Positions 100-44,741 of a stretch of 45,576 nucleotides of DNA are shown here, piece by piece (position 1 is the first letter of the stretch; every line of letters begins with the position of its first letter). Source of the stretch: a virus; the IMG/VR virus record IMGVR_UViG_3300037961_004642, positions 1 through 45,576 of that record, one strand, 5' to 3'. The notes beneath the pieces are model-generated. The model did not search any database. It was not told where the DNA came from and was given only the letters and a program-made list of their open reading frames with translations. The position numbers and the translations under genes were made by a program.

Positions 100-513
100 T
101 TCTTTACAGATGCCAGGCCCCCTCAAAAAAATGGCTGGGTAACCGGGGAGATTTCCTTTGAAGGTCTCATTGAGTCTCTTGATATCGAAGATGGCTTGTG
201 GTGGTCCCATGAGAGGAAACTGACCTTAATTACCGAAGTAGTGATAGAAGACTTTGTGAACAACTCCCAGAGCAAAGGCGGACAACGTAACGGTACAAGT
301 GAGTGTATTGGGGCGGTCGAATTCGCGTGCATAAAAACCGACACTCCATTTACTCGACAAAGAGCTGACCGACTTGTCCCCGCAAAACTTCATGCGGGCT
401 ATGTCGACACGCATAAGCATCTCCCTCACCAGGACAGTGCCTACCTTCACGGCTATTACTATCTGGTAGGCAAAGGAATCTTGACCCCCAAGGGTCTCGC
501 TGATACTCTGTGA
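34..513 (+). CDS. RuvC-like Holliday junction resolvase / RNase H-fold endonuclease
   Basis: About 159 residues with the RNase H-fold pattern of RuvC-type resolvases. A first-strand Asp sits in SIDPGRS (D7) and is followed by TIGWALF. A second acidic site is VVIEDF (E72). A C-terminal helix HQDSAYLHG supplies the last acidic residue, in the position of the family's H-x-x-D. Such phage enzymes resolve branched DNA before packaging. The start is set at ATG 34, with AGGAG seven bases upstream, rather than GTG 28. It is the last gene of the rightward replication arm and runs into the terminator at 537-579. The fold assignment is by motif; substrate specificity is inferred. Confidence 0.75.
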   Translation: MVLLSIDPGRSFKGEKTIGWALFFTDARPPQKNGWVTGEISFEGLIESLDIEDGLWWSHERKLTLITEVVIEDFVNNSQSKGGQRNGTSECIGAVEFACIKTDTPFTRQRADRLVPAKLHAGYVDTHKHLPHQDSAYLHGYYYLVGKGILTPKGLADTL

Positions 514-536
514 GCGAGGATCTCCAATCGCTCAGC

Positions 537-1377: not shown

Positions 1378-4300
1378 CGTTCGCCTCTCTCATCTTCTCA
1401 AACTCCGCGTAGTTGATGTAGTTCGGGCGGGACAGGTTCTGCACACCGAGGCCCGTGAACCAGTTCGCCAGGCTGAGAGCCTTGTCGAAGTCTGTCTTAT
1501 TGCCTCGTTCGATCTGAGCCTGCGGGTCAAGCCCGCGCCCACCTAGGACAGATTCTAGGCTCCCTGTCGGTGAGACACCAGAGAGGTTCGCAATGTAGTT
1601 CACGCCGGGGAGGGACTGGTCAACATAGTCGCTCCAGTCGTTGATGCGACCACCCGTGCTCCAGGAGCCTCCCGAGAGAAGCTCAGCAGGCACGCGAATG
1701 AGCGGCGAAGTCATTCCGGCAATCCCACGGAGGGGATCGGCACCGAGCGTGTCAAACACGTCCAGGTGGGCGATGCCGGGGTTCATCCGAATGTACTGGC
1801 CTCCGGGCATCTGGAACTGAGGCCCGATAGCGGATTCTGTGAGGAAGCTCGGGAAGAGCTGATCGTTCGGGAAAGGATCACTCAGGTTCTCCGGGTCGAG
1901 TCCGTTTGCGACAGCCCAGTTGTAGCTCGCCTTGTTGAACGTGGACAAGCGACCGGGATGCATAATCATCGACTCGACAAGGGCAGGGATGATCTTGCCG
2001 AACCAGGAGTAGAAGGGGATGGCGAGACGGATCTTGGACTCTGCTGTCGTGAGAAGAGAGGCATCCGGGTGGTACTTGATGACTTCCTTTACAGCGGCGT
2101 CGATTAGATCCTCACGGCTCTTGTACGTGCCCGCCTTCGCTTCCTGTCGAAGAATCTGAATGAAATGCTGGAACCTGGAGAGGTGGTCACGACCTTCCGA
2201 CACTCCTCCTGCGACTCGTCCGACAGGGGTATCACGCAGCGACACCTTGCCGAGGATCTGGTCAAGCTTTCCTGACGCCTCCAGGAAGTCCTCACCGACG
2301 TTGTAGGTCGGGAGAGCACCGCGCTCCGACAGGAGAGCATAAAGTTCATCGGCAGTGAACTCGCCGTACTTACCGCCATCGAAAATCTTGGCCCCGCCTG
2401 TGGGCACATCTTTGAAGCCGTAGCGAGTGGCTGCTTCCCGCATGTTGACATCACGGTAGTTGCCGCGTACGGACAGAACCTTTACAGCGTCCTTCCACGA
2501 CTGTCCGAAATATCGGTTGCCTCGCCGCATCCAAGTGACCGAGGTATCACCGATCATGTTTCGGATGTGGTGGCCAGGACGAGGGAGCGTGATAGCGAAC
2601 TTCCAGGAGTTCAGCAGGGGAGCATAGATCGTCCGAACGAAGTCACCAAGCTCTCCCTGGAACTGCCTGCTGGTGCGGAATACCTGCTCCACACGCTGAA
2701 GCTCTTGCGCCATCTCCTTCTTGATGTAGATATCCTCCGGGAGATGGGCAATGAACCGGCTCTGCCCTGACGCCTGGAGACGCACATAGCCGGAAGCCTT
2801 CTTTGTCGACACGGCACCCACGCCCTTTGCCATTTCGACAAAGCTGAGCGCGGTGCCCTTGTTGAATGCCAACTCCTGTCGAGCCAGGCTGAGCTTGTGC
2901 AGGAACTCCAGCGGGTCTTTCACGTCCCACTCTCGCCACTGATCTGCGAGTGCCTGATCGAGCGGAGTGTCCGTGCTCTTGGAGAGACGGGCTGCTTTGT
3001 CCATATCGAAGGCGTAGTCGAGACCCTTAGCCTTCAACATGTCGTTGATGATTTCAGGCTCGGAGGCAGTGCGAAGGAAGACGTTGCCCATCGACCCGGC
3101 TGCGTCAAGATCGAAGAATTCATCCAGCATCCCCGAGAGCATGTCGTACAGCTCTGCCTGCTTCGCGTCCGTGGGTCGGGTTCCCTGTCGGAGCATGTTG
3201 TAGGCACTGGGGAGAAGATCTTGCTGAGGACTGAGTTGCTTGGCTTTGCGAGAAATCGCGTTGAGCTGACTGTTGACGTACGCCGTGCGCATCGACATGC
3301 TGTTCTGCCATGCGTGTGCGATAGGCATAGCCTGCTGAGCCATGTAGTTCTGGTTGAACCACTGCTGGATCTTGTGCTTCGCTATCCCGTAGGGGTCGAT
3401 GATCCGGTTGCCGAACTGATCGACCATTGCAGGGACATCCTCAGATAGGTCCCTGTATGGCCCGCTGCGGCCCTTCTTCTTTTTCTTCGTCTTCGTGACA
3501 AACTCTGCGGCCTCATCGAAGAGCATGTCCCGCCAGTCACCCGACAGGGGGGTTGTCTCATCGACAACTTCTGCCCACTCCTCATTCGCTCCAAGACCGT
3601 CATCGCCCTTCTCAGGGCGAGAGCGGAAGTCGACATCCACGTCATCCCACACACCGTCTGTAAAGGTGCTCTCGGCTCGACGCAATTCGATAGCAGTAGA
3701 CGCGGATGTAGCTTGCGTGTCAGCACGGGAAGCCGCGTTTGTCGTGGCGACAAGCTCCCTGCCCAGGGCAGCATCAACCAGTTCTTCCGCGACAGTCTCG
3801 CCATCGGGAGTAGCGTTGATCTTCGATCCCTCCGCCTCGACACGCTTCTTACGGGCCTTCAGGGCGCGAGTCTTCAGGATCGCACCTGAGGGGTCCTTCA
3901 TAAAGGATTCGATCTTGGCCAGTTCGTCGCTAGAGAGCTTGTGCGCCTCTCCCCTGGCCCTGGCAGCGAACGCCGCCTCATTCTGTGCCGCACGAGCCCG
4001 AAGAAGTGGGGCAGCATCCATGATGGTGTCGGCCAGGGCCTCCGCCATATAGTTCGTCCCGCCCGTACGGTACTGAAGGTAGTAGTGCGTCTTCTCTCGC
4101 CCTGCTCGTCCGCTTTCTTTCTTGCGGATCATCGCCTTGACAGTGGCGTTGTCGACGCCCAGTTCTCGGGCGATGTCAGCGAGGGACGAGTAGTTGAGCG
4201 AACCCCAGCCGTGCCCTGAGTCGACAAGGTTGTTGGGCCGCCGCCCTTCAGCGTTCTTCAGCAGGCCCTTGTTGCCATACTTCTTCGAGTCCGTGAGGAT

Positions 4301-6583
4301 CTCGATGACCTCTTCTCGGGACTTCCCTGCCAGTCCCGCTGCAACAGCGTCAGTGACGGCAGTAGGAGCCGCCTGGGTGCCGTAGTTGAACAGTCCCTGG
4401 TCGATGGTGCGGCTCATACCAAGGCTGTCTCCGCTGGCAAGCAGGCCCCGATAGACCTCATCCATCGAAAGCATCACTGTGTCGGTTCCGACACCGATGC
4501 CCATGTGCGCCCCGATGTCGTCAAGGAGCTTTGCCTGGTCCGCCATGACCTGCATTACGGCAGCCTTATAGACACCGGTCCTCTGCTGGCTGTAAAGATC
4601 CTGGAAGCGCTTGCCCTTGATTCCCCGCGAACGCATCACATCGAGCGCGGCAATCTCGATAGCGTCTGACTGCTGTCGAAGCATGGTGTACTGACTGAAT
4701 CCGTTGAGCTGATCCACGTACCGGCCCAAGCCCTGCCCACGAGCCTTCTCAGTCCGGGCTACCTTCATGCCCATCTTCTTGAGGTAGTGCAGGTAGCCCT
4801 TGCTCTTCAGGTCTGTCAGTTCAGCGTCAAGAGCACGCGCAAGACCCTCACCGAGCTTGGCCCAATAAGGGTCATTGTTCTCCAGAAGACGCTGAGACGC
4901 TTCCGCCGCTTCTTCGGGGGTCTTCGGCTTGGACGCGCGGGGAACTCCGAGCCGATCCGACAGGATGCGGGCCAAGTTCTGGTCCATGTTGCGGAGGGTG
5001 TCGAGAACGTCGTCCCCCGGCTCGATGACATTCTTGATGTCAACAAGACGACGGGTGAGCTTGTCGTCCTTGTTCACCTTGCGGAGATAGTCGAACAGTT
5101 CGTCCCCGATAGCGTTTCGAACACTACTCTCGTCGGCCACTGCACGAGCCTGGAATGCGGACACAGAATCGACTACATCACCCTGCGGTGCGACAGTACG
5201 CCGATACTCGTTCTTCAGCAGAGCGAGGCGCTGTTCGATGTACTCCTTGCGGGGCTTGAGGCCCTGGGGAACGTCCTTATCCGCGTACGCGGCAAGGTCG
5301 CTTCGGAGCTTGGAGAGTGTGAAAGGCTGAGTCGCACCTGAAGGGTCGACCACTCGATGGGAGGCAGGGAGAGAGTTGGCCCACTGATTATAGGGAGGGG
5401 CCTGCTGGGCTCCCCGTGCTACGTCATCTGACAGTCCGCCGAGGAAGTCTGAAATAGGGCCTCTGTTGGGGCTCATCCTGATCGTGTCCGCGACAGAGGG
5501 AGCGGCCATAGGAGCAGGAATCTCATCTGCGGCACCCACAGGCACCTCTACGTCCGGGGCCTTGGCTGTCGCACCGAGAATCTCATCGAGAGGGGAGGAG
5601 ACAGCAGGAGGCACAGGAACGTCATCCGCTGCGGCAGGAAGCGCACGCTGGGCGGCTGATGCAGAGGGAGCAGTAGGTGCACTGGGCACGCCACGAAGAA
5701 TGTCCTGAGCCTTCTCAAGATCGGTGCCGAAGAACTCCAGGTTCTCCGTCTTTACAGGCGCGGCAGACGTGCCTGTGGGGCGGAAGTCCTCCGGGGTGAA
5801 TGTCGTCCCGCCCTCAAAGGGGTTCTCATTCTGGAACGTGGAGCGCTGCTGTTCCTTCTCAGCCTTAGCCGCCTTCGTCCCTGCCGTGGGAGTAGGAAGC
5901 TCGGTTGGGGCTTTCGCACCCACCAAACCGCGAGAAGCCGAACGAAGACCTTTGTCCGCACCACGAGCAAGAGCGCCAGCGCCCTTGATGAGACCCGTAC
6001 CCGACACCCACGTCAGAGGGTCAAGAGCAACATCGGCTGCGAATCCCGCAACCCCCTTGAATGCAGGGGAAACGTTGTCCTGAACATCCTTGTAGTCCGG
6101 GTTGAATGCTGCCTGACTCTTGTCGTACCCGTACTCAATCAGATCCGAGTTGGACTGCTTCATGGACGGGCTGTTGGACGTGAGCCCCTCAACGAACTTC
6201 TTGTTCGTGTCGTTGCCTGCCAACATCTTGAAGATCGACAGAGCAGGGCTCCCTGCAAGTCCGCCCGACAGGAGGGGCGGCATCTCAGGGATGCCCGAGA
6301 TGTACTCCCCGATCCCGCCCAGGAAGTCACCTTCCTGCGTTCGCTTGGCTCCGCTGACCTGCCGGTCGATGTTGCTCCGGTTAGCATTCGTCATGCCGTA
6401 TGTGGGGCGTGAAATCAGATCCATCGCCCAGTTCACAGCGGAAGAGAATGGCTCAGAAGCCTCCTCTGCAAGAGACTTGTTCCCCGACGACCAGTTGGGG
6501 AGGGAGGACGACTGCGGCTTGGCCGTGGCAGACGATCCCCTCTTGCGGAGTTCGTCCTGGTAGTAGTCCATGAACGAAGCCAT
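1367..6583 (-). CDS. Giant internal virion / DNA-ejection protein (1738 residues)
   Basis: The largest gene of the window. Residues 1-215 are mixed; about 215-370 is a low-complexity Pro/Ala/Ser stretch; the remainder is mostly helical. A helix-turn-helix-like segment (LADIARELGVDNATVKAMI) lies near 797-820. A motif LPRPGHHIRNMIGD near 1332-1345 leads into a Trp/Arg-rich segment. Short-tailed phages usually encode one very large internal protein in this position that is ejected with the DNA and spans the envelope. No peptidase or transglycosylase signature was seen; that activity sits in the next gene. ATG follows GGTAGGTTC. Family assignment rests on size and position, so the function is inferred. 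Confidence 0.65.
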   Translation of the reverse strand: MASFMDYYQDELRKRGSSATAKPQSSSLPNWSSGNKSLAEEASEPFSSAVNWAMDLISRPTYGMTNANRSNIDRQVSGAKRTQEGDFLGGIGEYISGIPEMPPLLSGGLAGSPALSIFKMLAGNDTNKKFVEGLTSNSPSMKQSNSDLIEYGYDKSQAAFNPDYKDVQDNVSPAFKGVAGFAADVALDPLTWVSGTGLIKGAGALARGADKGLRSASRGLVGAKAPTELPTPTAGTKAAKAEKEQQRSTFQNENPFEGGTTFTPEDFRPTGTSAAPVKTENLEFFGTDLEKAQDILRGVPSAPTAPSASAAQRALPAAADDVPVPPAVSSPLDEILGATAKAPDVEVPVGAADEIPAPMAAPSVADTIRMSPNRGPISDFLGGLSDDVARGAQQAPPYNQWANSLPASHRVVDPSGATQPFTLSKLRSDLAAYADKDVPQGLKPRKEYIEQRLALLKNEYRRTVAPQGDVVDSVSAFQARAVADESSVRNAIGDELFDYLRKVNKDDKLTRRLVDIKNVIEPGDDVLDTLRNMDQNLARILSDRLGVPRASKPKTPEEAAEASQRLLENNDPYWAKLGEGLARALDAELTDLKSKGYLHYLKKMGMKVARTEKARGQGLGRYVDQLNGFSQYTMLRQQSDAIEIAALDVMRSRGIKGKRFQDLYSQQRTGVYKAAVMQVMADQAKLLDDIGAHMGIGVGTDTVMLSMDEVYRGLLASGDSLGMSRTIDQGLFNYGTQAAPTAVTDAVAAGLAGKSREEVIEILTDSKKYGNKGLLKNAEGRRPNNLVDSGHGWGSLNYSSLADIARELGVDNATVKAMIRKKESGRAGREKTHYYLQYRTGGTNYMAEALADTIMDAAPLLRARAAQNEAAFAARARGEAHKLSSDELAKIESFMKDPSGAILKTRALKARKKRVEAEGSKINATPDGETVAEELVDAALGRELVATTNAASRADTQATSASTAIELRRAESTFTDGVWDDVDVDFRSRPEKGDDGLGANEEWAEVVDETTPLSGDWRDMLFDEAAEFVTKTKKKKKGRSGPYRDLSEDVPAMVDQFGNRIIDPYGIAKHKIQQWFNQNYMAQQAMPIAHAWQNSMSMRTAYVNSQLNAISRKAKQLSPQQDLLPSAYNMLRQGTRPTDAKQAELYDMLSGMLDEFFDLDAAGSMGNVFLRTASEPEIINDMLKAKGLDYAFDMDKAARLSKSTDTPLDQALADQWREWDVKDPLEFLHKLSLARQELAFNKGTALSFVEMAKGVGAVSTKKASGYVRLQASGQSRFIAHLPEDIYIKKEMAQELQRVEQVFRTSRQFQGELGDFVRTIYAPLLNSWKFAITLPRPGHHIRNMIGDTSVTWMRRGNRYFGQSWKDAVKVLSVRGNYRDVNMREAATRYGFKDVPTGGAKIFDGGKYGEFTADELYALLSERGALPTYNVGEDFLEASGKLDQILGKVSLRDTPVGRVAGGVSEGRDHLSRFQHFIQILRQEAKAGTYKSREDLIDAAVKEVIKYHPDASLLTTAESKIRLAIPFYSWFGKIIPALVESMIMHPGRLSTFNKASYNWAVANGLDPENLSDPFPNDQLFPSFLTESAIGPQFQMPGGQYIRMNPGIAHLDVFDTLGADPLRGIAGMTSPLIRVPAELLSGGSWSTGGRINDWSDYVDQSLPGVNYIANLSGVSPTGSLESVLGGRGLDPQAQIERGNKTDFDKALSLANWFTGLGVQNLSRPNYINYAEFEKMREANGGQ

Positions 6584-6592: not shown

Positions 6593-7843
6593 TTACCCTT
6601 GGAAGAGCTTACGATACAGGTCGAGCTGCTTGATCTGAGTGTTCGGCTCGTCCGACAGAGACACCAGGCCGTTGTTCTGAAGCTGGTCAATGTACTGCCA
6701 GAATGCATTCGGATCGTACGTGGGCTGCTGCTGTTGTGCCGCCAGTTCCATCGCCGCCTGCTGGTTCTGGTCGTCACGCTGCTGGTTGTACTGATCCATG
6801 CCCAGCATCTGCTGCGCTACTGCCATCGCCTCCGAGAACGAGTTGTCCTGAACGTTCTGGTTCTGGCTCTGTTCCTGCATGTCGATCTCACCAAGAAGAG
6901 CCTGGAGGCGTGCCTGGTTCTGTGCACGCTGAAGGTTGCCCTCCAGCCCAGCGGCGTTTCCGACGTTGGTGTTGTGCGTGAGCGCGGATGCCTGATTCGA
7001 CACGAGACGGTCACCGGCTGCCTGGCCCTTGGAAGCCTGGTCTGCGATCTGGTTGGCCGTCTGCGAGTTCAGATCCCGGCCCTCCTGGATGATGTTCCCC
7101 TGAGCCTTGCCGATTCCGAGGTTGTTCAGGACTTCCATGTTCCGGGAATTTGCGGCATCTGTAGCCTGCTGTGTCTGAGCCTGTGCCGTCTGGCTGTTGT
7201 CAGCAGTCGAGTCAATGGCCGTGTCGTACGCTTCCTGGAGCACAGGAGCGTCAGCGTCGATGGAGCCGCGAAGCTGCCGGTACATGGCCTCCAGACGAGC
7301 GTCGTTCTCTGATGCCTGCCCCCGAAGGGTTTCCCGCTGCGGGTCGTAGTTGACGCCGCCTCCGCCATTGGCCTGCTCGCCAATGATCGACATGGCTTGG
7401 TTGAGGTAGTCCGCGAACGTGGACTCCTCTTCCTGGGGTGCCTGGTTGTTGCGACCGTCATAGTCCCGCATCATGCCCAGCACAGAACCAAACAGATTCT
7501 TTACAGAAGTGTTGTCCCCTCCTGCGGGGGCCGACCCAGCGCCGGGGTTGGAGCCGAGAAGAAAGTCCCCGTACCCGCCGCTCTGCGTGCGAGGAGAGAA
7601 GGGTCGAACGACATCTCCCAGGAAGTTCGTCCAGTCCCGCATCCGATCCGTCAGAAAATTGCTCTGCTCAGGGGCTGTCGGAGCGAATGTCGTACCTGGC
7701 TTCACTTGGTTGTACTGAAATATGTTCTTCTCTTCAGGGGCGTCAAAAGACCCCCCTCCCGGACGATCACGACTGCCGGGCGTGGCAAGAGTGTCCCGTG
7801 TAGCAGGGCGAGCGACACGAGGCTTGAGCTTGTTGTCTGCCAC
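6593..7843 (-). CDS. Gln/Asn-rich internal virion protein
   Basis: 416 residues from GTG 7843. The ribosome site AGGAGG is the end of a CTGTAAAG motif copy (7853-7860), with five bases to the start. The C-terminal half is very rich in Gln and Asn (runs such as QQQQ near 370) and predicted helical, with repeated QNQ/NQA patterns. This is typical of structural or ejection proteins of short-tailed phages. It lies between two other candidate internal proteins in one run of genes. No enzymatic motif was recognised. Confidence 0.6.
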   Translation of the reverse strand: MADNKLKPRVARPATRDTLATPGSRDRPGGGSFDAPEEKNIFQYNQVKPGTTFAPTAPEQSNFLTDRMRDWTNFLGDVVRPFSPRTQSGGYGDFLLGSNPGAGSAPAGGDNTSVKNLFGSVLGMMRDYDGRNNQAPQEEESTFADYLNQAMSIIGEQANGGGGVNYDPQRETLRGQASENDARLEAMYRQLRGSIDADAPVLQEAYDTAIDSTADNSQTAQAQTQQATDAANSRNMEVLNNLGIGKAQGNIIQEGRDLNSQTANQIADQASKGQAAGDRLVSNQASALTHNTNVGNAAGLEGNLQRAQNQARLQALLGEIDMQEQSQNQNVQDNSFSEAMAVAQQMLGMDQYNQQRDDQNQQAAMELAAQQQQPTYDPNAFWQYIDQLQNNGLVSLSDEPNTQIKQLDLYRKLFQG

Positions 7844-7854
7844 GATGGCCTCCT

Positions 7855-8640
7855 TTACAGCCCGTACTGCGCTGCGCGTCGCTGAAGCGCCTCAGCCCGA
7901 GCGGCCTGCTGACTGGCAGTGTTCTCTGCCTTGTAATTCGCCGTCTGGTTGTCAAGGTCGGTCATAAAGGTCGTCTTCGCGCCCGACAGAGCATCGTACT
8001 GCTGGCCAAGCATCCGCTGAAGTTCGTTGAACGCATCCGCGTAGCCCTGGCTCTGGAGCATGTTCCTGCCCGCAAAGTCGTTGAGCTGGTTCTGGTAGCC
8101 ACGTCCCGAAGCAGTGATTGGGTCCTCCCAGTTCCACGTCCCCTGGCCCTCGTCATAGCCAAGATCACGGAGGCTCTTGCCGTAGTCCGTGGTATACGTG
8201 CTCCGCTGGAAGTCCACGTCAGAGAGGTAGCGCTCAAGAGCACCGAGAAGCGCCGACTTCTGTGTCTGGAAGCCACTGTCACCAGCAAGATAGTCTTCCT
8301 TGCTCGGGGCAGTCACAACAGGAGCAGGGGCGCTACCTCCGCCTCCGCCGCCACCAAAGGTATTGCCGCCGAAGTAACCGATGCTTCCGCCGCCTGTACC
8401 GCCTCCACCAGAACTACCGCCCGACGAAGGAGCAGAACGCTGGGAAGGCTCTTTCAGGACTGTTCCGGTACCCACCGGGAGGAACGGCGCACCATCAGAC
8501 TCATACGTCTTCTTCGTCACAGGCGCGGCGAAAGGGTTGCGCATTGTGTTCGAACCGACGCCACTACCACCGCTACGCCCATTTCCTGCCCCCCGCGTGG
8601 TTTTGGCGGGATTTGTCCGACCTGCCCACTGTCTGGCCAT
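7855..8640 (-). CDS. Gly-rich virion protein
   Basis: 261 residues from ATG 8640 behind GGAGG. Residues 1-45 are basic. About 75-105 is a Gly/Ser run (clusters of 4-7 glycines). The C-terminal 140 residues look like a helical coiled-coil domain rich in Gln and Ala. Architecture and place among the ejection-type proteins suggest a tail or internal particle protein. Nothing catalytic is visible. Confidence 0.6.
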   Translation of the reverse strand: MARQWAGRTNPAKTTRGAGNGRSGGSGVGSNTMRNPFAAPVTKKTYESDGAPFLPVGTGTVLKEPSQRSAPSSGGSSGGGGTGGGSIGYFGGNTFGGGGGGGSAPAPVVTAPSKEDYLAGDSGFQTQKSALLGALERYLSDVDFQRSTYTTDYGKSLRDLGYDEGQGTWNWEDPITASGRGYQNQLNDFAGRNMLQSQGYADAFNELQRMLGQQYDALSGAKTTFMTDLDNQTANYKAENTASQQAARAEALQRRAAQYGL

Positions 8641-16608: not shown

Positions 16609-16615
16609 GAGAAAT

Positions 16616-16641: not shown

Positions 16642-16663
16642 AGACAGTGGATTATGCCGGACT

Positions 16664-27786: not shown

Positions 27787-27807
27787 TCTCCAGGGTGGAG
27801 GAATCAA

Positions 27808-27885: not shown

Positions 27886-27897
27886 GAGGTAGCACGC

Positions 27898-28059: not shown

Positions 28060-28071
28060 GCGCCCACCGCT

Positions 28072-33028: not shown

Positions 33029-33053
33029 CCTTCTACCCTAGCCAGAGTAGGCT
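33025..33053 (+). promoter_or_regulatory. Promoter ahead of the replication module
   Basis: TTGACC (33025-33030) and TAGGCT (33048-33053), 17 bases apart, fit a sigma-70-type promoter (TANNNT -10). A TACCCTAG motif lies in the spacer (33034) and a CTGTAAAG copy overlaps the -10 (33052-33059). The next start codon is 30 bases on. Confidence 0.6.
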
Positions 33054-33082
33054 GTAAAGACACGAATCGACAGGAGATCCAA

Positions 33083-33400
33083 ATGACTGAAGTAGCAGCA
33101 GGGCAGGTATGGCGGGACAAGGACAAGCGACGCAACACCGCTGTCCGAATCGAAAGCGTCAATCCTCTGGAGGTTACCGCTCGTGTCGTGGGGACGACCG
33201 AAGTGCGAACCTACGGCCTTGCTCGTTTCGCTCACAGATGGAAGATGTCCTCAGACGTGCGGAAGAAGCAGGGAGTATACATGCTCAAAATGGCATGTAA
33301 TCAGGACCCGACATACTTCCTCCGCATGACTCAGACGAAGATCGACAACTGGGGTGCCCCTCTCTGCCCCTGCCATCACGAGGCGATGATCGAAGCGTGA
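33083..33400 (+). CDS. Small SH3-like / zinc-site protein
   Basis: 105 residues from ATG 33083 with AGGAG upstream. N-terminal VAAGQVWRDKDKRRNTAVRI, then ESVNPLEVTARVV, looks like a small SH3-type barrel. The C-terminus has CPCHHE plus an earlier Cys, a possible metal site. It overlaps the helicase GTG by four bases, so the two are translated together. Function unknown. Confidence 0.6.
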   Translation: MTEVAAGQVWRDKDKRRNTAVRIESVNPLEVTARVVGTTEVRTYGLARFAHRWKMSSDVRKKQGVYMLKMACNQDPTYFLRMTQTKIDNWGAPLCPCHHEAMIEA

Positions 33401-36295: not shown

Positions 36296-37047
36296 TGCCG
36301 TTCATCACAGGGATCTGCAACGCCTGTGCCGCAGGCATTCTAGAGGAGTGCGAGAACCCCGAGGAAGTGCCAGGGCATCCTGAATGGATTATCCCGTGTG
36401 CCGGGAAGTTCGAAGGGCTGGCAGTCCAGGTCGTCAAGGGAGAGCCCGGACAGATCGGTAGGCCCCCTCTCGATCCCGGCAAGGTCACAGACCCCACCAG
36501 TACAGGCAGGAAGCGGGCGAAGATGCTCGCACCGATCCTCGCTGGACAGAGGTGCGGCTGGGCCGGACTGAAGCACGCTGGAGGCGGTGTTACCCCGATC
36601 CTTGGCTGCAACGGCCATCTCATGGTCGAGAAGAAAGGTGGCGAGGGAGACCACTATCAGGGCGACAGGCACCACGGCCCCGATAAGAACACACTCAACA
36701 ACAGTGTCGGAGTCAACCTTCATTCGGTCTGCGTTGAGTGCCACCATCGGTGGCACGCACTCAATGATGAGTTCTATGACGAAGAGGGCAGACCGACCGC
36801 TGAGTTCCCTTTCCTTCCTGTCGAGGCGTACTACCTGCATGATCCGAACACTGCCTTTACAGAAGAAGAGTACGAAGTAGCTGAGGCATGGTGGGATCTT
36901 CCGAGGTTTGACCGAGGCCCGTATCCGTTCAGCCCGCCAGATGAGGCGAAGAAAGTGTTGCCCATGCTGCCTCAGCCTGCTACCCTAGACCCTACGGAGA
37001 ATCCATTCCCGGATTCGCCGTTCGCAGAGATTGGAGACTCTGAATGA
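36295..37047 (+). CDS. HNH-type endonuclease-like protein
   Basis: 250 residues from GTG 36295. Several Cys pairs lie in the N-terminal part (CNAC, later Cys 35, 87, 105). The centre has a His-rich segment DHYQGDRHHGPDKN (119-132), and CVECHHRWHALN (146-157) gives the C-x-x-C-H-x3-H ending of many HNH nucleases. The first catalytic His cannot be fixed by eye. In phages this type may nick or resolve replication intermediates. The C-terminal 60 residues are Pro/acidic. Confidence 0.6.
   Translation: MPFITGICNACAAGILEECENPEEVPGHPEWIIPCAGKFEGLAVQVVKGEPGQIGRPPLDPGKVTDPTSTGRKRAKMLAPILAGQRCGWAGLKHAGGGVTPILGCNGHLMVEKKGGEGDHYQGDRHHGPDKNTLNNSVGVNLHSVCVECHHRWHALNDEFYDEEGRPTAEFPFLPVEAYYLHDPNTAFTEEEYEVAEAWWDLPRFDRGPYPFSPPDEAKKVLPMLPQPATLDPTENPFPDSPFAEIGDSE
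36981..36987 (+). promoter_or_regulatory. TACCCTAG motif inside gene end
   Basis: CTGCTACCCTAG, i.e. TGC-extended, 57-63 bases upstream of the exonuclease start and inside the last codons of the HNH-like gene. Same orientation as transcription. Confidence 0.35.
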
Positions 37048-37622
37048 CCGCTTTTGTCTTTCTTGACGTTGAAACCACCGGACTCGACCCCACTGAGGAT
37101 CACATCCTGGAGATCGCATGGCAGGTGACGGACGAGAAGCTGAGGGTTCTCAGCCCGGCTCGATCCTTCATTGTCGATCACGTTCACGACTGGGGCGATG
37201 TGTTCGCCTCTCTCCTGTCGAATGAGGTAGTTCGTCAGATGCATCAGGACAGCGGTCTGTTCGATGCCATGCGACAGGAGGACGGCACTCCTATGGACGA
37301 CATTCTGGATCAGCTTTTGATGGATATTGGTCGGGTTGAAGGTCCGATCCACCTTGCAGGGTTCAGTGTCCACTTCGACCGGGACTTCCTCTCAGAAGCC
37401 GGGTGGAGTGCTCTGTTCAACAGCGATGCTCTGGGAGTGAAGATCCATCACCGACTCTTCGACCTCAGTGCTGTAAAGATCATGCTGGAAGTGGCTGGGC
37501 TACCTGTCCCTGAGGTGTCGAACCCTCGGCCCCACCGGGCAAAGTTCGATGTCACTGAATCACTGGAGTTTGCTTTGGCTCTCCAGGATCAGCTTGATTT
37601 CCGCATCCGGGGGGAAAACTAA
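37044..37622 (+). CDS. DEDDh 3'-5' exonuclease (DnaQ-like)
   Basis: 192 residues. Exo I FLDVETTGLD (D8, E10), Exo II GFSVHFDRD (D112 or D114) and Exo III HRAKFDVTES (H164, D169), the DEDDh set of DnaQ/oligoribonuclease-type enzymes. It could proofread or trim DNA, or degrade small RNA. The ATG overlaps the previous stop; the stop overlaps the next ATG. It carries one CTGTAAAG site (37471). Confidence 0.82.
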   Translation: MTAFVFLDVETTGLDPTEDHILEIAWQVTDEKLRVLSPARSFIVDHVHDWGDVFASLLSNEVVRQMHQDSGLFDAMRQEDGTPMDDILDQLLMDIGRVEGPIHLAGFSVHFDRDFLSEAGWSALFNSDALGVKIHHRLFDLSAVKIMLEVAGLPVPEVSNPRPHRAKFDVTESLEFALALQDQLDFRIRGEN

Positions 37623-37747: not shown

Positions 37748-38112
37748 CTAACTCGAACGAAGCCCGAGAAGCGCTGGCCGAGGTGCGAGGAATCCGAAAG
37801 GCCGCTGACCATCTACGCCTCATGCAGAACGGCGGGGGGAGCGGGAAAGGACTGGTGTGGGGCCTACTGGATTGGGCAGACGAGATGGAGAAAAAGACCT
37901 CCGCAGCCTTGGCAATGGACCTACGTGAGCAGGGCTTCCGCCGCCCCGAGCCGGTACCGGATACCTACGAGTGGGAGTACGCCTACATGGCGGATGCATA
38001 CAGCGCGAATCATTACGCCACCCGCGAGGAGGCCGAGGAATACATGGGCAATCCGCAACTGTTCCGCCGCCGCAAGCCTGGCCCATGGGAGCCCGTAGAG
38101 GGTGATTCCTAA
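37744..38112 (+). CDS. Accessory protein (122 residues)
   Basis: ATG 37744. Helical N-terminus with NEAREALAEVRGIRKAADHL, then an acidic, Tyr-rich part (YEWEYAYMADAYSANHYATR). G+C-rich like the 27.9-32.1 kb accessory genes and sharing a 24-base near-identity with the gene at 31839. It seems to be an accessory gene inserted among replication genes. Function unknown. Confidence 0.55.
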   Translation: MTNSNEAREALAEVRGIRKAADHLRLMQNGGGSGKGLVWGLLDWADEMEKKTSAALAMDLREQGFRRPEPVPDTYEWEYAYMADAYSANHYATREEAEEYMGNPQLFRRRKPGPWEPVEGDS

Positions 38113-39173
38113 TGGGATCTGTCTCCCATTCTCGTGTCGACTCCTACCTGACGTGTCGACGTAAGGAGTATTACTCCTACCACCGGAAGCTCACCAAGAT
38201 CGACAACAGCACTGGGCTTGTGCTCGGAACTGCGATCCACCGTGTGCTCGCTGCCCTCTATCAGCATGTGCTCGATGCAGGGAACTCTCTGGCTGCACAG
38301 AAAAAGGCATACCCGGAGGCTGTAAAGGTTGCATGGCTGGAGGTGGATCGAATCTACTCAGAAGGATTCGAAGACACCGACAAAAGGGCACCACTCCGAC
38401 TCATCATCGAGAAGTACCTCCAACGCGAGCCTTTCATCGACAGAGAGTGGCATGACAACAAGAGGCAATGGCGCATCCTGGGTGTCGAGAAGGAGTTCAA
38501 CCTGGAGTACGACTCCGAAACAGGAGGCCGTTACCCGTTCGTTATCGACCTGATCGTGCAGGACCCGACAAAGAAGATCGTGGTTGTCGACCATAAGGGG
38601 CTGTACGACTTCTATAGCTACGAGACGACCAACCTCATGCCTCAGATTCCGAAGTACATCGGAGCGCTGAGAGCACTGAACTACAACGTCTCCTACGGCA
38701 TGTACAACATGATCCGCACCAGGCCCGAGAGCAAGGGCAACAAGCTCAATAAGGCTGAACTGGTAGAACTGCTGAGCAAGTCGGACATCGGGGAGATTGA
38801 CCCGAAGATGAAGGTCACTGAATTGGAAGCGATTGCCGACGAACACGACATCCCCTACTACGAAGGCCGGGTGCTGGATGACTGGGCTTTCGCTATGGAG
38901 ATTCAGCCTTCCGGGGTTCGAGTGCAGCGATCTTTCCTGGAGCAGATCAACGCCTCAATGGAGGTGGCGGAACTTGACACGTTGGATGATGAGACGCGCG
39001 ACATCAAGGCGTACCGCATCGGCAACTCAATGATCTGCAAGTCCTGCCCCTTTAAAGACATCTGCTCCGAGGAGCTTCGCGGGGGTAATGTGGCTCTCCT
39101 GCTGCAAACGGAATACAAGATCAAAGACAAGCGGGACGAGATTCTCGTCTCTGAGGAGTTGAGCGACGAATGA
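38112..39173 (+). CDS. Cas4/RecB-like PD-(D/E)XK nuclease with Fe-S motif
   Basis: 353 residues. N-terminal SYLTCRRKEYY (C15) and C-terminal ICKSCPFKDIC (C309, C312, C318) supply the four Cys of an iron-sulphur cluster, as in Cas4 and AddB-type nucleases. The nuclease core shows TAIHRVLAALY (H43), PFVIDLIV (D146), VVVDHKG (D160, K162) and a PQIPKY helix. It should be a DNA exonuclease that makes 3' single strands for annealing. The next gene encodes a Sak4-like recombinase, so the two probably act as a recombination pair. It has a CTGTAAAG site (38320). Confidence 0.82.
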   Translation: MGSVSHSRVDSYLTCRRKEYYSYHRKLTKIDNSTGLVLGTAIHRVLAALYQHVLDAGNSLAAQKKAYPEAVKVAWLEVDRIYSEGFEDTDKRAPLRLIIEKYLQREPFIDREWHDNKRQWRILGVEKEFNLEYDSETGGRYPFVIDLIVQDPTKKIVVVDHKGLYDFYSYETTNLMPQIPKYIGALRALNYNVSYGMYNMIRTRPESKGNKLNKAELVELLSKSDIGEIDPKMKVTELEAIADEHDIPYYEGRVLDDWAFAMEIQPSGVRVQRSFLEQINASMEVAELDTLDDETRDIKAYRIGNSMICKSCPFKDICSEELRGGNVALLLQTEYKIKDKRDEILVSEELSDE

Positions 39174-39228: not shown

Positions 39229-40140
39229 ATGCCTGCTGCTAAAGCCAACCTCGCAAAGATCCTGTCCAGGATGAATGACCTGGAGCACCAGGAAGTCGAG
39301 AAAGACTTCATCGGGATGTTCTTCGGTGGTCCCGGTGTAGGCAAGACTGTCGCATCCGTAGGGCTTGCTCAGAAGCTCCGGGGCGAAGGTCGAGCACTCT
39401 ACCTCGACAGCTCAGACGGATGGGTTTCCATCGACAACCACCCGTCCCTCAAGCGAGGCATCGACCGAATCGAAGTGTCCGACCCTCGTGACCTGATGAC
39501 CATTGCCAACGCTCTGCGATCCCGACACAAGGGATTCGAGGGCTACCGTGTTGTCATCCTCGATGAAGTGTCAAGCTGGTACACCGACATCCTCCACGCC
39601 TACGTGCGAGAGCAGACAGGGACCAAGGATGACGAGGACCTTCCTGAGATCGAAGGCTCCATGCACGCCGCACCGCAGGCGATGTTTCTGAACGTCATCA
39701 AGACGTTCCACAAAACGGAGAACCTTCACGTCATCATGGTCGCCCACGAACAGGGACGACCGATCAAGGGCGAATCTGGCGCGTTGCTCATGTCGCCCTC
39801 CCTCGGCCCGAAGATCACCTCTGGCCTAGCTCAGCTTTCCCACCTCATCGCTCGCTTCGAGAGCCGCAAGGTGAAGGACAAGTATGAGAGGGAAGCTCAG
39901 GTTTGGCCCACGCGCTACGTCATGGCCAAGAGTAGGATCGGCGGACTGGACCTGAAACTCCCTGTCGCTTCTCTGGTGAAAGCCGTGTCCGAATGGATCA
40001 ATAGCTCCCGTATGGGGGACGACCTCATCAAGCCGGAAGAGAAGGTTCTCGCTGAAGAGCCGGACGACGATGATGAGGATGAAGATTTCGAAATCTCGGA
40101 TGATGACTCCGAAGATGACGATAAGGACGGAGAGAGCTAG
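39229..40140 (+). CDS. Sak4-like RecA-fold ATPase (recombinase)
   Basis: 303 residues. Walker A GGPGVGKT (33-40), Walker B RVVILDEVSS (D111, E112), and a sensor segment VIMVAHEQGR near 168. These match the AAA_24/Sak4 type of phage annealing ATPases. The C-terminus is very acidic (DDDDEDEDFEISDDDSEDD), a likely contact to an SSB or other partner. The neighbouring Cas4-like nuclease and SSB-like protein complete a recombination/replication-repair set. Confidence 0.8.
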   Translation: MPAAKANLAKILSRMNDLEHQEVEKDFIGMFFGGPGVGKTVASVGLAQKLRGEGRALYLDSSDGWVSIDNHPSLKRGIDRIEVSDPRDLMTIANALRSRHKGFEGYRVVILDEVSSWYTDILHAYVREQTGTKDDEDLPEIEGSMHAAPQAMFLNVIKTFHKTENLHVIMVAHEQGRPIKGESGALLMSPSLGPKITSGLAQLSHLIARFESRKVKDKYEREAQVWPTRYVMAKSRIGGLDLKLPVASLVKAVSEWINSSRMGDDLIKPEEKVLAEEPDDDDEDEDFEISDDDSEDDDKDGES

Positions 40141-40207: not shown

Positions 40208-40253
40208 CGGATCGACCGATCCAGCACCACACACACTGTAAAGGAATGATGCA

Positions 40254-40751
40254 ATGGGACTCTTTGACGATTTTGGTATCGACGCTGACGATGTGGAAGC
40301 ACCGAGCTTCTCGAACCCTGACGATGGCTTCTACGGATTCGAGATCACTGAAGGACTGATCCAGGAGGGCACGAAGAAGAAGCCTGACGACACCTTCTTC
40401 ATCATCAAGTACAACCTTGATGAAGCCGGGGAGAAGCAGGAGTGGTTTACTACTGCTCAGGACGGGGAACTCACGGAACGGGCTCTTCAGAGCCTGGGCT
40501 ACCTGAAGAACCGTCTCACCGATCTGGGCCTCGACCCGAAGAACACGGACCCGGAGGACCTCGAAGGAATCCGGGGTGTCCTCCAGCTCGTGACCACGAA
40601 GAATGCCAAGGGTGAATTCCAGAACGTCCGAAAGGTCACTCTGGAAGAAGAGCCTGAGAAGCCTGCGAAGGCGAAGCAGTCGGCCAAGAAGCCTGCTGCG
40701 AAGGCCAAGAAGGCGGTCTCTGACGACGAGAACCCGTTCGAAGACGACTGA
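40254..40751 (+). CDS. SSB-like single-stranded DNA-binding protein
   Basis: 165 residues from ATG 40254; the ribosome site AAAGGA is the end of a CTGTAAAG motif (40236). The N-terminal 110 residues are beta-rich with aromatic residues (FYGFEITEG, FFIIKYNLDE, EWFTTAQDGE), compatible with an OB fold. A Lys/Ala-rich linker follows (about 130-155), then an acidic tip DDENPFEDD. Such tips are the protein-interaction tails of SSBs. Position next to the recombinase and before the replication genes agrees. Recognition is structural in style, not by strict motif. Confidence 0.6.
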   Translation: MGLFDDFGIDADDVEAPSFSNPDDGFYGFEITEGLIQEGTKKKPDDTFFIIKYNLDEAGEKQEWFTTAQDGELTERALQSLGYLKNRLTDLGLDPKNTDPEDLEGIRGVLQLVTTKNAKGEFQNVRKVTLEEEPEKPAKAKQSAKKPAAKAKKAVSDDENPFEDD

Positions 40752-40763: not shown

Positions 40764-40801
40764 GAAGAAGGCCCCGTCTTATTGGGGACGGGGCCTTCTT
40801 C
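40764..40801 (+). terminator. Strong intrinsic terminator after SSB-like gene
   Basis: Perfect 15-bp stem (40764-40778 with 40787-40801) and 8-base loop; the arm ends in CCTTCTTC, so the T-rich tail is built in. It would make the SSB-like gene the end of a transcript and keep its abundance separate from the polymerase genes. Confidence 0.85.
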
Positions 40802-40835
40802 TCGCGTGAGGCTGAGAACAGGAGGAGACCTTTAC

Positions 40836-41135
40836 ATGCCTACAATTGATATCATAGGGTATCTAGCTGAGAATTCACAAGATTTCGGCCTTCCCGACCC
40901 GAAAATCAAGCCAGATTCTTTTCTCTCTGCCGCATTGTCTATTGCCGTGGACTTGGATTCTGTCGGAGTGAAGTGTTTCATCCTGAAGCACGTTCCCCAC
41001 AACCAAATCGAATGGTCTGTCTATTTGCGCGGACATCGACACGAGGTGTGGGATGCAATGGTGAATGACGCATTGTCTTCTGCTCTTGTCGACCGTGCCA
41101 TTAGCAGAATCAACGAGGGGGCTGGTTCTGAATGA
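40836..41135 (+). CDS. Small hypothetical protein before primase-helicase
   Basis: 99 residues from ATG 40836 behind GGAGGA. Mixed alpha/beta with a beta middle (VGVKCFILKHVPHNQIEWSV) and C-terminal helix. Lower G+C than most genes. Its stop overlaps the next ATG. Function unknown. Confidence 0.6.
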   Translation: MPTIDIIGYLAENSQDFGLPDPKIKPDSFLSAALSIAVDLDSVGVKCFILKHVPHNQIEWSVYLRGHRHEVWDAMVNDALSSALVDRAISRINEGAGSE

Positions 41136-42925
41136 CCAAATCAGACGACCTCAGAGCTTTCTTCGATCAAGTCTGGAAAGACACTGAAGGATACGTCTAC
41201 CTTCCTGTAAAGGGAGTCAATGGCTTCAAGAAGTTTATGATTCCCTGGCCTCGTAAGGCAGACGCCGTAGTCAACCATGTCCTTACGTACGCCGCTGACG
41301 AAACCAGCCAGGTGTTCTACAGCCCGGCAATCTACTCCAAGCCGAAGCCGACACAGGACAATGTTCTAGGGTCCTGGTACGCCTGGTGTGACTTCGATGG
41401 GAACTTCCCTGACGAGTGGCCTGAGAACATCGCTCCGCTGCCGACAATCGAGATCCAGAGCAGTACCTCGAAGAAGAGGCACACCTATTGGGCGATGAAC
41501 GAACTCATCCCCGGCAAAAAGATAGCCGAGATCAACAAGGCGCTCGCCTATGCTCTTGAGGCCGACCTGTCGGGATGGGATGCAAGCCAGTTCCTTCGCC
41601 CTCCGTTCACTGTCAACCGCAAATACAGCAAGCCGATCACCGCGAAGATTCTGAAGAACCGTCTTGACCGTCGCTACACTGTCGAGTCGTTCGCGCACAT
41701 CCCGAAGCCGAAAGAAGCAATCGCCTCCCACATCGAGTTGAACCAGCTTCCTTCTGTCGATGAAGTTCTCGCAGAAGCCAAGTGGGACGGTGAACTGCTG
41801 AAGCTCTTCCGTACCTCGGGGGACGAGATGCAGCGAGCAGGGCGCGACCGTTCCGGTGCGCTCCAGAGGCTGGCGTATGAGGGTGCGGAGCACGGATGGT
41901 CCGATGAGCAGATCATGGTCACGCTCACGGACGCTGACGACCGCTGGGGGAAGTACGTAGGCAGGAACAATCGCAAGAAGATCCTTGTCGACCTCATCAA
42001 CCGGGCCAGGCAGAAGGTCGGCTATGAGCCGACAGCAGAGCTAGAGGGACTGGCTAAGGCCCTTACTAAGTCTCCTGTCGAAGAGGACGATGACCAGATT
42101 CTTTTCTCTGTCGATGAACTGGCCACGCTCAAAGGAATTGAGGACTGGCTGGTAGGCGATCTTCTCACTCCTCGTGGCATGGGACTTTTCACTGGGCGAC
42201 CCGGAGTCGGGAAGACGCAGGCTAGTTTCCAGTTGGCTGCTGATCTTGCGTCAGGGCGACAGAGCTTCCTTTCCCGTGATCTTCCCGGCAAGCCGACTCG
42301 TGTGCTGTACCTCAGTTTGGAGATGAACAAGCATCAGCTTCCGCACATCGCCAAGCCACTGAGTGAGCGGTACCCCGATCTGGTGCAAGACAACCTTATG
42401 GTCTACGCCAAGGGGGAACGTCTCCCTTTGGATCAAGACAGCGGGCAGAACTACTTTGAAGTCCTCGTTGACAAGTTCAAGCCGAAAGTGGTGTTTGTCG
42501 ACTCGCTGAGCCACATGGTGGCTGCTGATCTGACCAGCGATAACGAGATGAAGGAAGCATTTGAGTTCCTTCAGCGTGCACGAAACCAATTCGACTTCGG
42601 GCTCATCATCGTGCATCACCACAGGAAGAAAGCGAATGATGCCGCGAGTCGGAAGAACCCGAACAGCCTCAGCGATGTGTACGGCTCGTTCTACATCACC
42701 GCTGCTGTCGACTTCGTGCTCGACCTAGAAGTCCTCGCATCTGACGTTGATGAGGGAACGATCACAATGTCTTTGTTGAAGAACAGGTATGCGCCAATTC
42801 CTGAGCCGACAAAGATATCCCGGAACAACAAGTTGCATTTCGAAATCACTGAAGACATGGTGAAACATTTCACAGAGAGAGGGGGAGACGATGACGACGA
42901 CAATTCCCCGAGTCTCGGTCTCTGA
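41132..42925 (+). CDS. Primase-polymerase / RepA-type helicase fusion
   Basis: 597 residues. The N-terminal domain has archaeo-eukaryotic primase features: WCDFDG (D87, D89), a KKRHTYW motif (H117) and GWDASQFLRPPFTVNRKY (D150). A linker with a helical PriCT-like segment (about 225-300) follows. The C-terminal domain is a RecA-fold helicase: TGRPGVGKTQ near 353-362, KVVFVDSLSH near 452-461, and IIVHHHRKK near 493. The protein should both start DNA strands and unwind the fork. ATG 41132 overlaps the preceding stop, and the end overlaps the polymerase gene by 35 bases. It has a CTGTAAAG site (41205). Confidence 0.8.
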   Translation: MTKSDDLRAFFDQVWKDTEGYVYLPVKGVNGFKKFMIPWPRKADAVVNHVLTYAADETSQVFYSPAIYSKPKPTQDNVLGSWYAWCDFDGNFPDEWPENIAPLPTIEIQSSTSKKRHTYWAMNELIPGKKIAEINKALAYALEADLSGWDASQFLRPPFTVNRKYSKPITAKILKNRLDRRYTVESFAHIPKPKEAIASHIELNQLPSVDEVLAEAKWDGELLKLFRTSGDEMQRAGRDRSGALQRLAYEGAEHGWSDEQIMVTLTDADDRWGKYVGRNNRKKILVDLINRARQKVGYEPTAELEGLAKALTKSPVEEDDDQILFSVDELATLKGIEDWLVGDLLTPRGMGLFTGRPGVGKTQASFQLAADLASGRQSFLSRDLPGKPTRVLYLSLEMNKHQLPHIAKPLSERYPDLVQDNLMVYAKGERLPLDQDSGQNYFEVLVDKFKPKVVFVDSLSHMVAADLTSDNEMKEAFEFLQRARNQFDFGLIIVHHHRKKANDAASRKNPNSLSDVYGSFYITAAVDFVLDLEVLASDVDEGTITMSLLKNRYAPIPEPTKISRNNKLHFEITEDMVKHFTERGGDDDDDNSPSLGL

Positions 42926-44741
42926 ATTCCTGGATTGGTTGTACCGTCACCCGGATCAGCCATTGGCAGTTGACACAGAGACAAGAGGCGTAGACGACCC
43001 CTCACTGGGGCTTCGAGTTGACGACAATAGAGCCATTTGTATTGGCATCTCGTTCAGCACACGCATCAAAGGAAAGATGCAGTCTGCATACGTTCCGACA
43101 GCACATGTGATCGGAAAGAATGCAGACGAGAAGACAATCTCTCGCCTGAAATACGTGCTCAAACAGGGCAGACCGCTGATCTATGCGAACTGCCAATTCG
43201 ACATGCTCAGCCTGGAAACACTGGGTATTCGGGTGTCGGAAATGCCTTTCTACGACATTCAGACAATGGCCAATCTGGTGCGTGAAGACTGGCCCATAAT
43301 GAAAAGCCTTGACATGCTCGCCACCGTCTATCTTGGGGATGACGAAGGAAAGATCAAGGAATGGGATTATGTCGAATACGAGGAGATGAAGAACGGCAAA
43401 CTTCGTCTCCGAAAAGAGTCGACACTGGACTGGCAGAAGAAGAATGGGTGGCCGACAGCCACACCTGAGATGATCTACGACTATGCCTGTGTCGACACAG
43501 ACCAGACATATCGCATATGGGAAGCGCTCATGCGACACCCGAATTGGAAAGAACAGCCGAAGGATCTGTGGGACAACAAGCAGAAACTGATCCGAGTCCT
43601 CGTGGAGATGAAGCGGAGAGGTATCCGGGTAGACACAGAACTAGCCCACGAACTGGAGCTTGAGGGCACGGCTGTAAAGGAAGAACTGCTCAAGCGGCTG
43701 GGAGGGCTGAATCCTAGTTCTGTAAAGGATGCCCCGAAAATCTTCCTGGAGAAGCTGGAACTGCCTGTCCTGAAGAGGACTCCGAAAGAGGCCCCGAGCT
43801 TCACGAAGGCAGTGTTGGAAGAATACGACATGATCCTCTCCAACCGAGAAGGCCCTCAGCCTCCCGAGGTGGGATACGTCAAGGCATGGCGGGGCTGGAC
43901 AACAGCGATGGGGCTTTTGCTTCGCCCATATCAGGAGCGGGTTTCGCCGGATGGAAGACTGAGAACCAGCTACACCACGCATGTCACTTCGACAGGGAGG
44001 TTGTCAGCGCGAGAGCCGAACCTTCAGCAGATATCGAAGGAGGGCGGGAGCCCCTGGAACAACCGGGTGAAGAAGTGCTTCCTACCGAAGCCGGGCTACC
44101 GGCTTCTGTCTGCGGACTACTCTCAGCTTGAGCTTCGTTTGGCTGTCGCGTACGCACAGGAACCTGAGCTTCAAGCCATCTTCGATGAGGGACGTGACAT
44201 CTTCAGCGAGATGGCAGCAGAGATGGGATGGCCCAGGCCGAAGACGAAGAGCTTTGTCTACGCGACACAGTATGGGGGCGGGGATGCCCGAATCTCTTAC
44301 ATCTTCAACGTCAGCATCGAGCAGGCTAAGCAACTGCGAGAGAAGTTCTACCGGAAGTATCCCCGATTCAGGAAGCTCGACATGGCATGTCGGTCGAGGG
44401 TGCAGGAGACGAAGAAGCTGAAGCTCTGGTCTGGCCGCATCCGACACTTCCGTAGTGCGGAGGAGAGCTACAAGGCGATGAACGCTCTCTTGCAGGGTGG
44501 GGCAGCGGATGTGGTTGAGCGGGTCTGGGTGCATGTGATGGACGTGCTGGACAGTGAGGGCTGTCGCTGTCTTCTTCAGGTCCACGACGCTCTTGTCTTT
44601 GAGGTTCGTGAGGATCTGGTTGAGGAGTACCGGGAGAAGATCCGTGTCGTTATGGAGGACGTGAACGGTATTTGTGACCCTGGTTCGACAGAGCCGCTAT
44701 TTCCGGTGCGGTTCGCGGTCGACGTGACCGACTGGGAGTGA
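42891..44741 (+). CDS. Family A DNA polymerase with 3'-5' exonuclease
   Basis: 616 residues. Exo I LAVDTETRG (D28, E30), Exo II ANCQFDML (D104) and Exo III YDYACVDTDQT (near 197-207) indicate a live proofreading domain. Polymerase motif A SADYSQLELRL (near 407-417), motif B RPKTKSFVYATQYGGG (near 449-464) and motif C LLQVHDALVFE (near 561-571). Motif B has Phe-Val-Tyr in place of the more usual Asn-Phe-Gly part. It is the replicative enzyme. Two CTGTAAAG sites lie 48 bases apart (43672, 43720), the closest pair apart from the two at 16.6 and 35.2 kb. Confidence 0.92.
   Translation: MTTTIPRVSVSEFLDWLYRHPDQPLAVDTETRGVDDPSLGLRVDDNRAICIGISFSTRIKGKMQSAYVPTAHVIGKNADEKTISRLKYVLKQGRPLIYANCQFDMLSLETLGIRVSEMPFYDIQTMANLVREDWPIMKSLDMLATVYLGDDEGKIKEWDYVEYEEMKNGKLRLRKESTLDWQKKNGWPTATPEMIYDYACVDTDQTYRIWEALMRHPNWKEQPKDLWDNKQKLIRVLVEMKRRGIRVDTELAHELELEGTAVKEELLKRLGGLNPSSVKDAPKIFLEKLELPVLKRTPKEAPSFTKAVLEEYDMILSNREGPQPPEVGYVKAWRGWTTAMGLLLRPYQERVSPDGRLRTSYTTHVTSTGRLSAREPNLQQISKEGGSPWNNRVKKCFLPKPGYRLLSADYSQLELRLAVAYAQEPELQAIFDEGRDIFSEMAAEMGWPRPKTKSFVYATQYGGGDARISYIFNVSIEQAKQLREKFYRKYPRFRKLDMACRSRVQETKKLKLWSGRIRHFRSAEESYKAMNALLQGGAADVVERVWVHVMDVLDSEGCRCLLQVHDALVFEVREDLVEEYREKIRVVMEDVNGICDPGSTEPLFPVRFAVDVTDWE

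Follow-up and report, generated by a model that had tools for sequence, protein, structure and literature searches.

An exact octamer recurs throughout the phage genome

Why does a phage genome of 45 kb hold dozens of copies of one exact octamer? The question is raised by IMG/VR record IMGVR_UViG_3300037961_004642, a complete-sized phage genome of 45,576 nt analyzed over its whole length (the window), and by its 8-mer CTGTAAAG, for which an earlier note had claimed at least 27 copies against about 1.4 expected, an excess of ∼20-fold. Whatever reads this word, an explanation is called for when a 45-kb genome keeps 28–46 exact copies and bends its protein coding to accommodate them. Our comparison points to recognition by a primase, which was not among the candidates of the earlier note. 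Literature searches found no paper joining CTGTAAAG and phage and none on the related phage Shocker (see below).

The window contains 28 exact copies, 16 as CTGTAAAG on the plus strand and 12 as CTTTACAG on the minus strand, the first at 102–109 and the last at 43720–43727. The word is the top over-represented 8-mer of the window, with 28 copies versus 0.51 under an order-2 Markov model (∼55-fold, z about 38). The excess is therefore real, persists after Markov correction, and is stronger than first claimed; the expectation of 1.4 had assumed uniform composition. With genes called from open reading frames (ORFs), here and in the IMG/VR contigs, 23 of the 28 copies (82%) lie wholly within genes, whereas synonymous-codon shuffling leaves 0.8 ± 1.0 (maximum of 5 in 60 shuffles), which excludes codon use as the cause, as the earlier note had held. 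Its statement that the copies occupy both orientations and several reading frames also stands: 13 encode xVK, five FT[DEA], four LY[SR], and one CK, and five are intergenic or extend over gene edges.

The word is sharp, because its one-mismatch variants are not enriched (13 in total versus 21 expected). The flanking positions are nearly uninformative in the window; over the 115 sites of the three genomes introduced below, position −1 avoids A and position +1 favors G or A. Eighteen copies are oriented with transcription and 10 against it, and the proportion is about even in Shocker, so no orientation rule is apparent. Pairs spaced 50–76 bp apart are in weak excess (15 versus 9.2, p = 0.05). 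The regional lack of sites described earlier for the fiber, lysis, and accessory regions is not borne out, as the largest gap of 6.6 kb is unexceptional (p = 0.31) and one copy (27846) lies in the accessory region. The copies at 7853 and 40236 do occupy stop or ribosome-site positions, as proposed. In contrast, the copy at 33052 does not form a −10 box; the extended −10-like element TACCCTA lies 18 bp upstream of it. No support was obtained for a −35 box at 16602 (given as 16603). No RNA families or tRNAs were found in the window.

The word is conserved in a small clade and rare in the host genus

The nearest sequenced relative of the window phage is Microbacterium phage Shocker (about 70–75% nucleotide identity, shared genes). 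Wider relatives are Arthrobacter phages Jasmine, Casserole, and Brad, Cellulosimicrobium phage DS1, and IMG/VR contigs, one of which (3300046814_000005) is referred to as G020. The left arm of the window holds virion genes, and the right arm encodes an SNF2-like helicase, an HNH-like protein, an exonuclease, a Cas4-like exonuclease, a Sak4-like protein, a primase-helicase, and a family A DNA polymerase.

Shocker contains 45 copies of CTGTAAAG versus 0.13 expected, and G020 contains 46 versus 1.4 under the synonymous-codon null. The next relative, G017, has a single copy, and all remaining relatives have 0–4. The word-bearing clade thus consists of three genomes (window, Shocker, and G020); genomes of this lineage are not independent of each other. 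At alignable sites the word is kept at homologous places in 37–74% of cases, compared with 9–13% for all 8-mers, and is not lost as freely as other 8-mers. Exact conservation is 9/18 from window to Shocker, 7/15 from window to G020, and 14/19 from Shocker to G020. Opposite some sites, the aligned codons of the relatives are unrelated, indicating that these sites were gained or lost together with amino acid changes. In Shocker, the CTG-TAA frame occurs at six sites, all of them genuine stop codons. Selection acts on the word and on many of its positions, and the earlier note was right to see in it a distributed word acting at the DNA level. The copies in the window are as follows.

102–109, minus strand, inside 28–513, on the opposite strand
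2087–2094, minus strand, coding AVK
2480–2487, minus strand, coding AVK; kept in Shocker
3658–3665, plus strand, kept in Shocker
4590–4597, plus strand, kept in Shocker
5750–5757, minus strand, coding PVK
7499–7506, minus strand, coding SVK
7853–7860, minus strand, covers the TAA stop of 7855–8640 and the next gene's ribosome site; kept in Shocker and G020
9574–9581, plus strand, kept in Shocker
9994–10001, plus strand, exact match
16602–16609, plus strand, intergenic; paired with 16662 (a similar 55-bp pair lies at Shocker 11366/11421)
16662–16669, minus strand, covers the stop of 16664–16867
17855–17862, plus strand, portal gene; kept in Shocker and G020
21180–21187, minus strand, terminase gene
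24713–24720, plus strand, small-terminase-like gene; kept in Shocker and G020
25421–25428, minus strand, tandem helix-turn-helix (HTH) gene
27846–27853, minus strand, accessory region
33052–33059, plus strand, intergenic; 18 bp past TACCCTA at 33034
35150–35157, plus strand, kept in G020
35206–35213, minus strand, kept in G020
35819–35826, plus strand, exact match
36855–36862, minus strand, kept in Shocker and G020
37471–37478, plus strand, exact match
38320–38327, plus strand, exact match
40236–40243, plus strand, intergenic, upstream of 40254–40751
41205–41212, plus strand, within the primase-polymerase gene; kept in Shocker and G020
43672–43679, plus strand, DNA polymerase gene
43720–43727, plus strand, aligned place reads CTGTCG in Shocker and G020

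In the phages, CTGTAAAG reaches a density of 0.6–1 per kb. Sixteen Microbacterium genomes (3.0–4.5 Mb) carry 0–8 copies each, below the reversed control; Microbacterium is the host genus of Shocker and may not be that of the window phage. Three other phages isolated on Shocker's host, Microbacterium paraoxydans, carry 0–1 copies. These counts exclude a host Chi site and make a host regulator very unlikely; both were rejected. CTGTAAAG resembles the Chi site of Escherichia coli RecBCD as an exact, asymmetric, distributed octamer, but Chi is over-represented in its host, whereas CTGTAAAG is almost missing from Microbacterium. The reader of the word is most likely encoded by the phage itself.

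A search of genomes with the capsid protein as query revealed no prophage. Shocker (L001) appears to have terminal direct repeats (about 1–480 and 44950–45431), because CTGTAAAG sites recur with identical spacing at both ends.

CTGT/GTGT words accompany a primase-polymerase

The replication operon at the right end of the window comprises the following genes.

40254–40751, plus strand, acidic-tailed SSB-like protein (predicted function), encoded immediately upstream in the replication operon
40782–41135, plus strand, small clade-specific gene that overlaps the start of the primase-polymerase gene; candidate accessory factor
41132–42925, plus strand, primase-polymerase (PrimPol, AEP type) with a fused DnaB/RadA-like helicase; putative reader of CTGT-words
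42891–44741, plus strand, family A DNA polymerase

In the protein of 41132–42925, AEP motifs (WCDFDG, SSTSKKRHTYW, and RPPFTVNRK, read by eye) are followed by a helical region and a DnaB/RadA-like ATPase, and the protein matches phrog_10514 and DnaB-like families. By fold, its AlphaFold2 (AF2) model matches the RepB′ primase (PDB code 3h20, E = 1e-8) and DnaB helicases. In G009, G010, and G011, the primase-helicase is found as two overlapping ORFs of about 184 and 417 amino acids (L032:10619-12414, L034:2429-4227, and L030:1-950).

Phages with this enzyme share a family of short words. When about 2,000 hexamers were ranked by over-representation (some comparison phages being covered over their first 40–60 kb only), a [CG]TGTNN word was over-represented in all 15 genomes of the lineage, with best ranks of 1–18. 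CTGTGG ranks first in Jasmine, Casserole, Brad, and G019, and CTGTCG in DS1, G017, and G010; CTGTCG is over-represented also in the window, G009, and G018, CTGTAG in MW202795, and CTGTAC in G013. The window contains 128 copies of CTGTCG, 123 of them within genes, where codon shuffles predict 37. Eleven distant phages of Actinobacteria, Gammaproteobacteria, and others (hosts including Gordonia, Mycobacterium, Serratia, Pseudomonas, and Yersinia; L065-L068, L075-L076, L219-L226, and L236-L241) share with this lineage only a distant PrimPol-helicase (21–26% identity). GTGTGG ranks first in eight of them and third in one, and CTGTGG ranks second and ninth in the other two; the GTGTGG pattern was first noticed in three phages, after which eight more served to test it. 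In none of nine control phages did such a word rank higher than 89 (best ranks 89–309). GTGTGG is likewise not in excess in mycobacteriophage D29 (29 versus 26.7 expected), which is outside the listed relatives of the PrimPol enzyme. Synonymous-codon nulls agree with these ranks. More even spacing than random was seen for CTGTCG in Shocker, for CTGTGG in Jasmine, and for CTGTGG and GTGTGG in several phages.

A PrimPol recognition word as the favored explanation

PrimPols have known template words: the recognition sites published for these enzymes are GTG/GTGG, with pRN1 ORF904 reading GTG and NrS-1 PrimPol reading GTG(G) plus the exact 8-mer TTTGGTTA (PMC8718748). Because of these sites and of the association between word and enzyme, the CTGT/GTGT words as a family are very probably template sites of PrimPol. 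We infer that PrimPol of the window reads CTGT-words and that CTGTAAAG belongs to the same set. The odds are about even that CTGTAAAG is a longer, clade-specific member of this family. Our favored explanation, to which we give a probability of roughly 0.5, is that the replication machinery encoded by the phage, most likely the PrimPol-helicase 41132–42925, recognizes CTGTAAAG as a site on its single-stranded DNA template.

The window phage resembles NrS-1 and pRN1 in combining an AEP primase-polymerase with a helicase, and it resembles NrS-1 in pairing one exact 8-nt site with a short frequent one, here CTGTAAAG and CTGTCG. The GTGTGG and CTGTGG words of its relatives contain GTGG. However, the sites of NrS-1 and pRN1 were found biochemically, whereas the evidence here is genomic enrichment, and the letters differ (CTGTAAAG versus TTTGGTTA). 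The fold match RepB′ of RSF1010 (3h20) is a sequence-specific initiating primase. It uses two origin sites (ssiA and ssiB), in contrast to the genome-wide spread of the word in the window.

According to this proposal, PrimPol would meet CTGTAAAG on either strand during replication, bind it, and start DNA or primer synthesis adjacent to the bound word. Phages with this enzyme family would retain many copies of the word read by their own enzyme: GTGTGG in distant families and CTGTGG, CTGTAG, CTGTAC, or CTGTCG in the lineage of the window. The clade formed by the three word-bearing phages would have added the longer and sharper CTGTAAAG, nearly missing from the host genus, and this gain was possibly accompanied by the small protein whose gene overlaps the primase start. 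The outcome would be a phage-specific start signal on both strands, placed in any permissive coding slot.

A gene similar to 40782–41135, of about 90–117 codons, lies between the SSB-like gene and PrimPol in all three word-bearing phages, and no relative of it was found in seven lineage phages lacking the word (G017, G018, G009, G010, G011, DS1, and Jasmine). Its product may serve as a specificity factor. A 75-bp segment at the 5′ end of this gene (window positions 40790–40864) shares 93% identity with Shocker and 86% with G020, although the encoded proteins are just 33–35% identical; the segment is possibly an origin, an operator, or an RNA element.

Several findings weigh against the PrimPol proposal. 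The distribution of 40782–41135 is shared by another gene, 33083–33400, so that its co-distribution with the word is a correlation only. PrimPol of G017 is 56% identical to that of the window, yet CTGTAAAG is not enriched in G017. CTGTCG is enriched 1.9–2.6-fold in the clade and 2.4-fold in G017, indicating that CTGTAAAG is an addition to the shorter word and not a replacement. CTGTAAAG shares just the CTGT prefix with the word family, a coincidence that by our estimate could arise by chance alone at the 1–4% level. The spacing of CTGTAAAG in the window is no more regular than random, and the AF2 model of PrimPol is of medium quality (predicted local distance difference test (pLDDT) 66), with a better N-terminal part. 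Moreover, the near-palindromic CTNTANAG would also fit a protein that binds double-stranded DNA, as would the CCTGTAAAGG form in Shocker.

If the proposal is correct, the template specificity of PrimPols, usually found enzyme by enzyme in vitro, could be read from phage genome sequences, and a broad panel of phages whose words are mapped could serve to test how specificity is set by the helix bundle. The proposal would also provide a concrete case of a virus that marks its own genome with a word nearly missing from its host. A more far-reaching version, which we regard as speculative and rather unlikely, is that CTGTAAAG serves as a private replication address: an exact, host-rare 8-nt word, read by PrimPol together with the newly gained subunit 40782–41135 and written in dozens of copies on both strands by adjusting protein sequences, so that the replisome would initiate on phage rather than host DNA. 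In its widest form, this version would have PrimPol phages of unrelated hosts each write their own primase word genome-wide.

Alternative readers of the word

The best-surviving alternative, which has an appreciable but clearly smaller chance of being correct, is a duplex operator, silencer, or nucleoid site that would be read, in the manner of a stoperator or nucleoid protein, by one of two putative DNA-binding proteins.

24968–25489, minus strand, tandem HTH protein (AF2 pLDDT 90)
32591–33028, plus strand, winged-helix protein

Apart from the near-palindrome CTNTANAG, it is the tandem HTH protein that recommends this alternative. The protein is unusually well conserved within the clade (70–73% identity), its AF2 model is confident, and the three word-bearing phages share the same second recognition helix (ADVVVQRYADGRQR), which differs outside the clade. 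However, it is also present in G017 and G009–G011, and a Jasmine-like phage encodes a structurally matching protein; none of these genomes is enriched in CTGTAAAG. Two HTH units bound in adjacent grooves would also be expected to cover more than eight contiguous base pairs. No solved tandem counterpart was found among its fold matches. The winged-helix protein was rejected as reader, because its recognition helix differs among the three phages; no relatives of it were found in IMG/VR. The word itself is asymmetric and exact, lacking the variants typical of operators, and TACCCTA fits an intergenic regulatory word better.

The earlier note had compared the word with the stoperators of cluster A phages, and the likeness to L5, D29, and TipsytheTRex is real: about 20–45 asymmetric sites are distributed over an actinophage genome of 45–50 kb, and the core letters are similar (TGTCAAG versus TGTAAAG in the window). 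Stoperators are, however, intergenic and lie in one orientation relative to transcription (PMC9283540, PMC6550527), and our counts for D29, used as a positive control with the same scripts, agree. In D29, the stoperator word CTGTCAAG occurs 21 times versus 1.9 expected, 20 of 27 TGTCAAG cores are intergenic, and 23 of 27 cores (15 of 15 full sites) point one way. Stoperators are variable 13-bp sites, whereas CTGTAAAG is an exact 8-bp word, mostly coding and unoriented. A stoperator identity was rejected on location, orientation, and sharpness, and the phage-wide repressor site suggested earlier is not supported. No PDB sequence match was found for an L5 gp71/TipsytheTRex-type repressor, and none appeared in the top 50 fold matches of the tandem HTH model.

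Somewhat less probable is that the word addresses recombination proteins or nucleases of the phage (Cas4-like exonuclease 38112–39173, Sak4-like protein 39229–40140) as a Chi-like or self-recognition signal, which would protect phage DNA or load recombination on it rather than on host DNA. An exact, asymmetric octamer on both strands, independent of coding, would suit such a signal, as would the contrast between its density in the phages and its rarity in Microbacterium, and the window phage does encode its own recombination set. Yet the exonuclease and annealing genes are present lineage-wide, whereas CTGTAAAG is clade-specific; no RecBCD/AddAB-like Chi reader was found, and a host Chi is excluded by the Microbacterium counts.

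A modification or host-defense mark (methylation, restriction–modification, or another defense site), also raised by the earlier note, is very improbable: the word is suitably short and sharp, but phages gain nothing by accumulating defense targets, the word is nearly missing from Microbacterium genomes, other phages of the same host carry 0–1 copies, and no methyltransferase was found among the proteins scanned. Chance, codon usage, or composition, for which nothing speaks but the small number of frames used, is refuted by the Markov and synonymous-codon nulls, the recurrence in three genomes, and the positional conservation.

Further features of the clade

The G020 homologue of 33083–33400 (L090:6983-7825) carries an inserted SprT-like metalloprotease segment (HELVHAIDDGKSGH). 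The adjacent SNF2-like helicase gene (33397–36171) contains an intein-like insertion beside its Walker A motif (GDEPGAGKGSPLWEK...FIVTHNT); the Shocker homologue is far shorter (582 amino acids) and apparently without the insertion.

Another word enriched in the clade is TACCCTA, with 17, 24, and 20 copies in the window, Shocker, and G020, respectively. It is mostly intergenic and co-directional, with the look of an extended −10 element (TGnTACCCTA), and its positions in the window include 22650, 26021–28145, 33034, 36981, 39179, and 44742. Its counterparts are ACTACC[TC]CA in G017 and TACGCTAA in G010 and G011.

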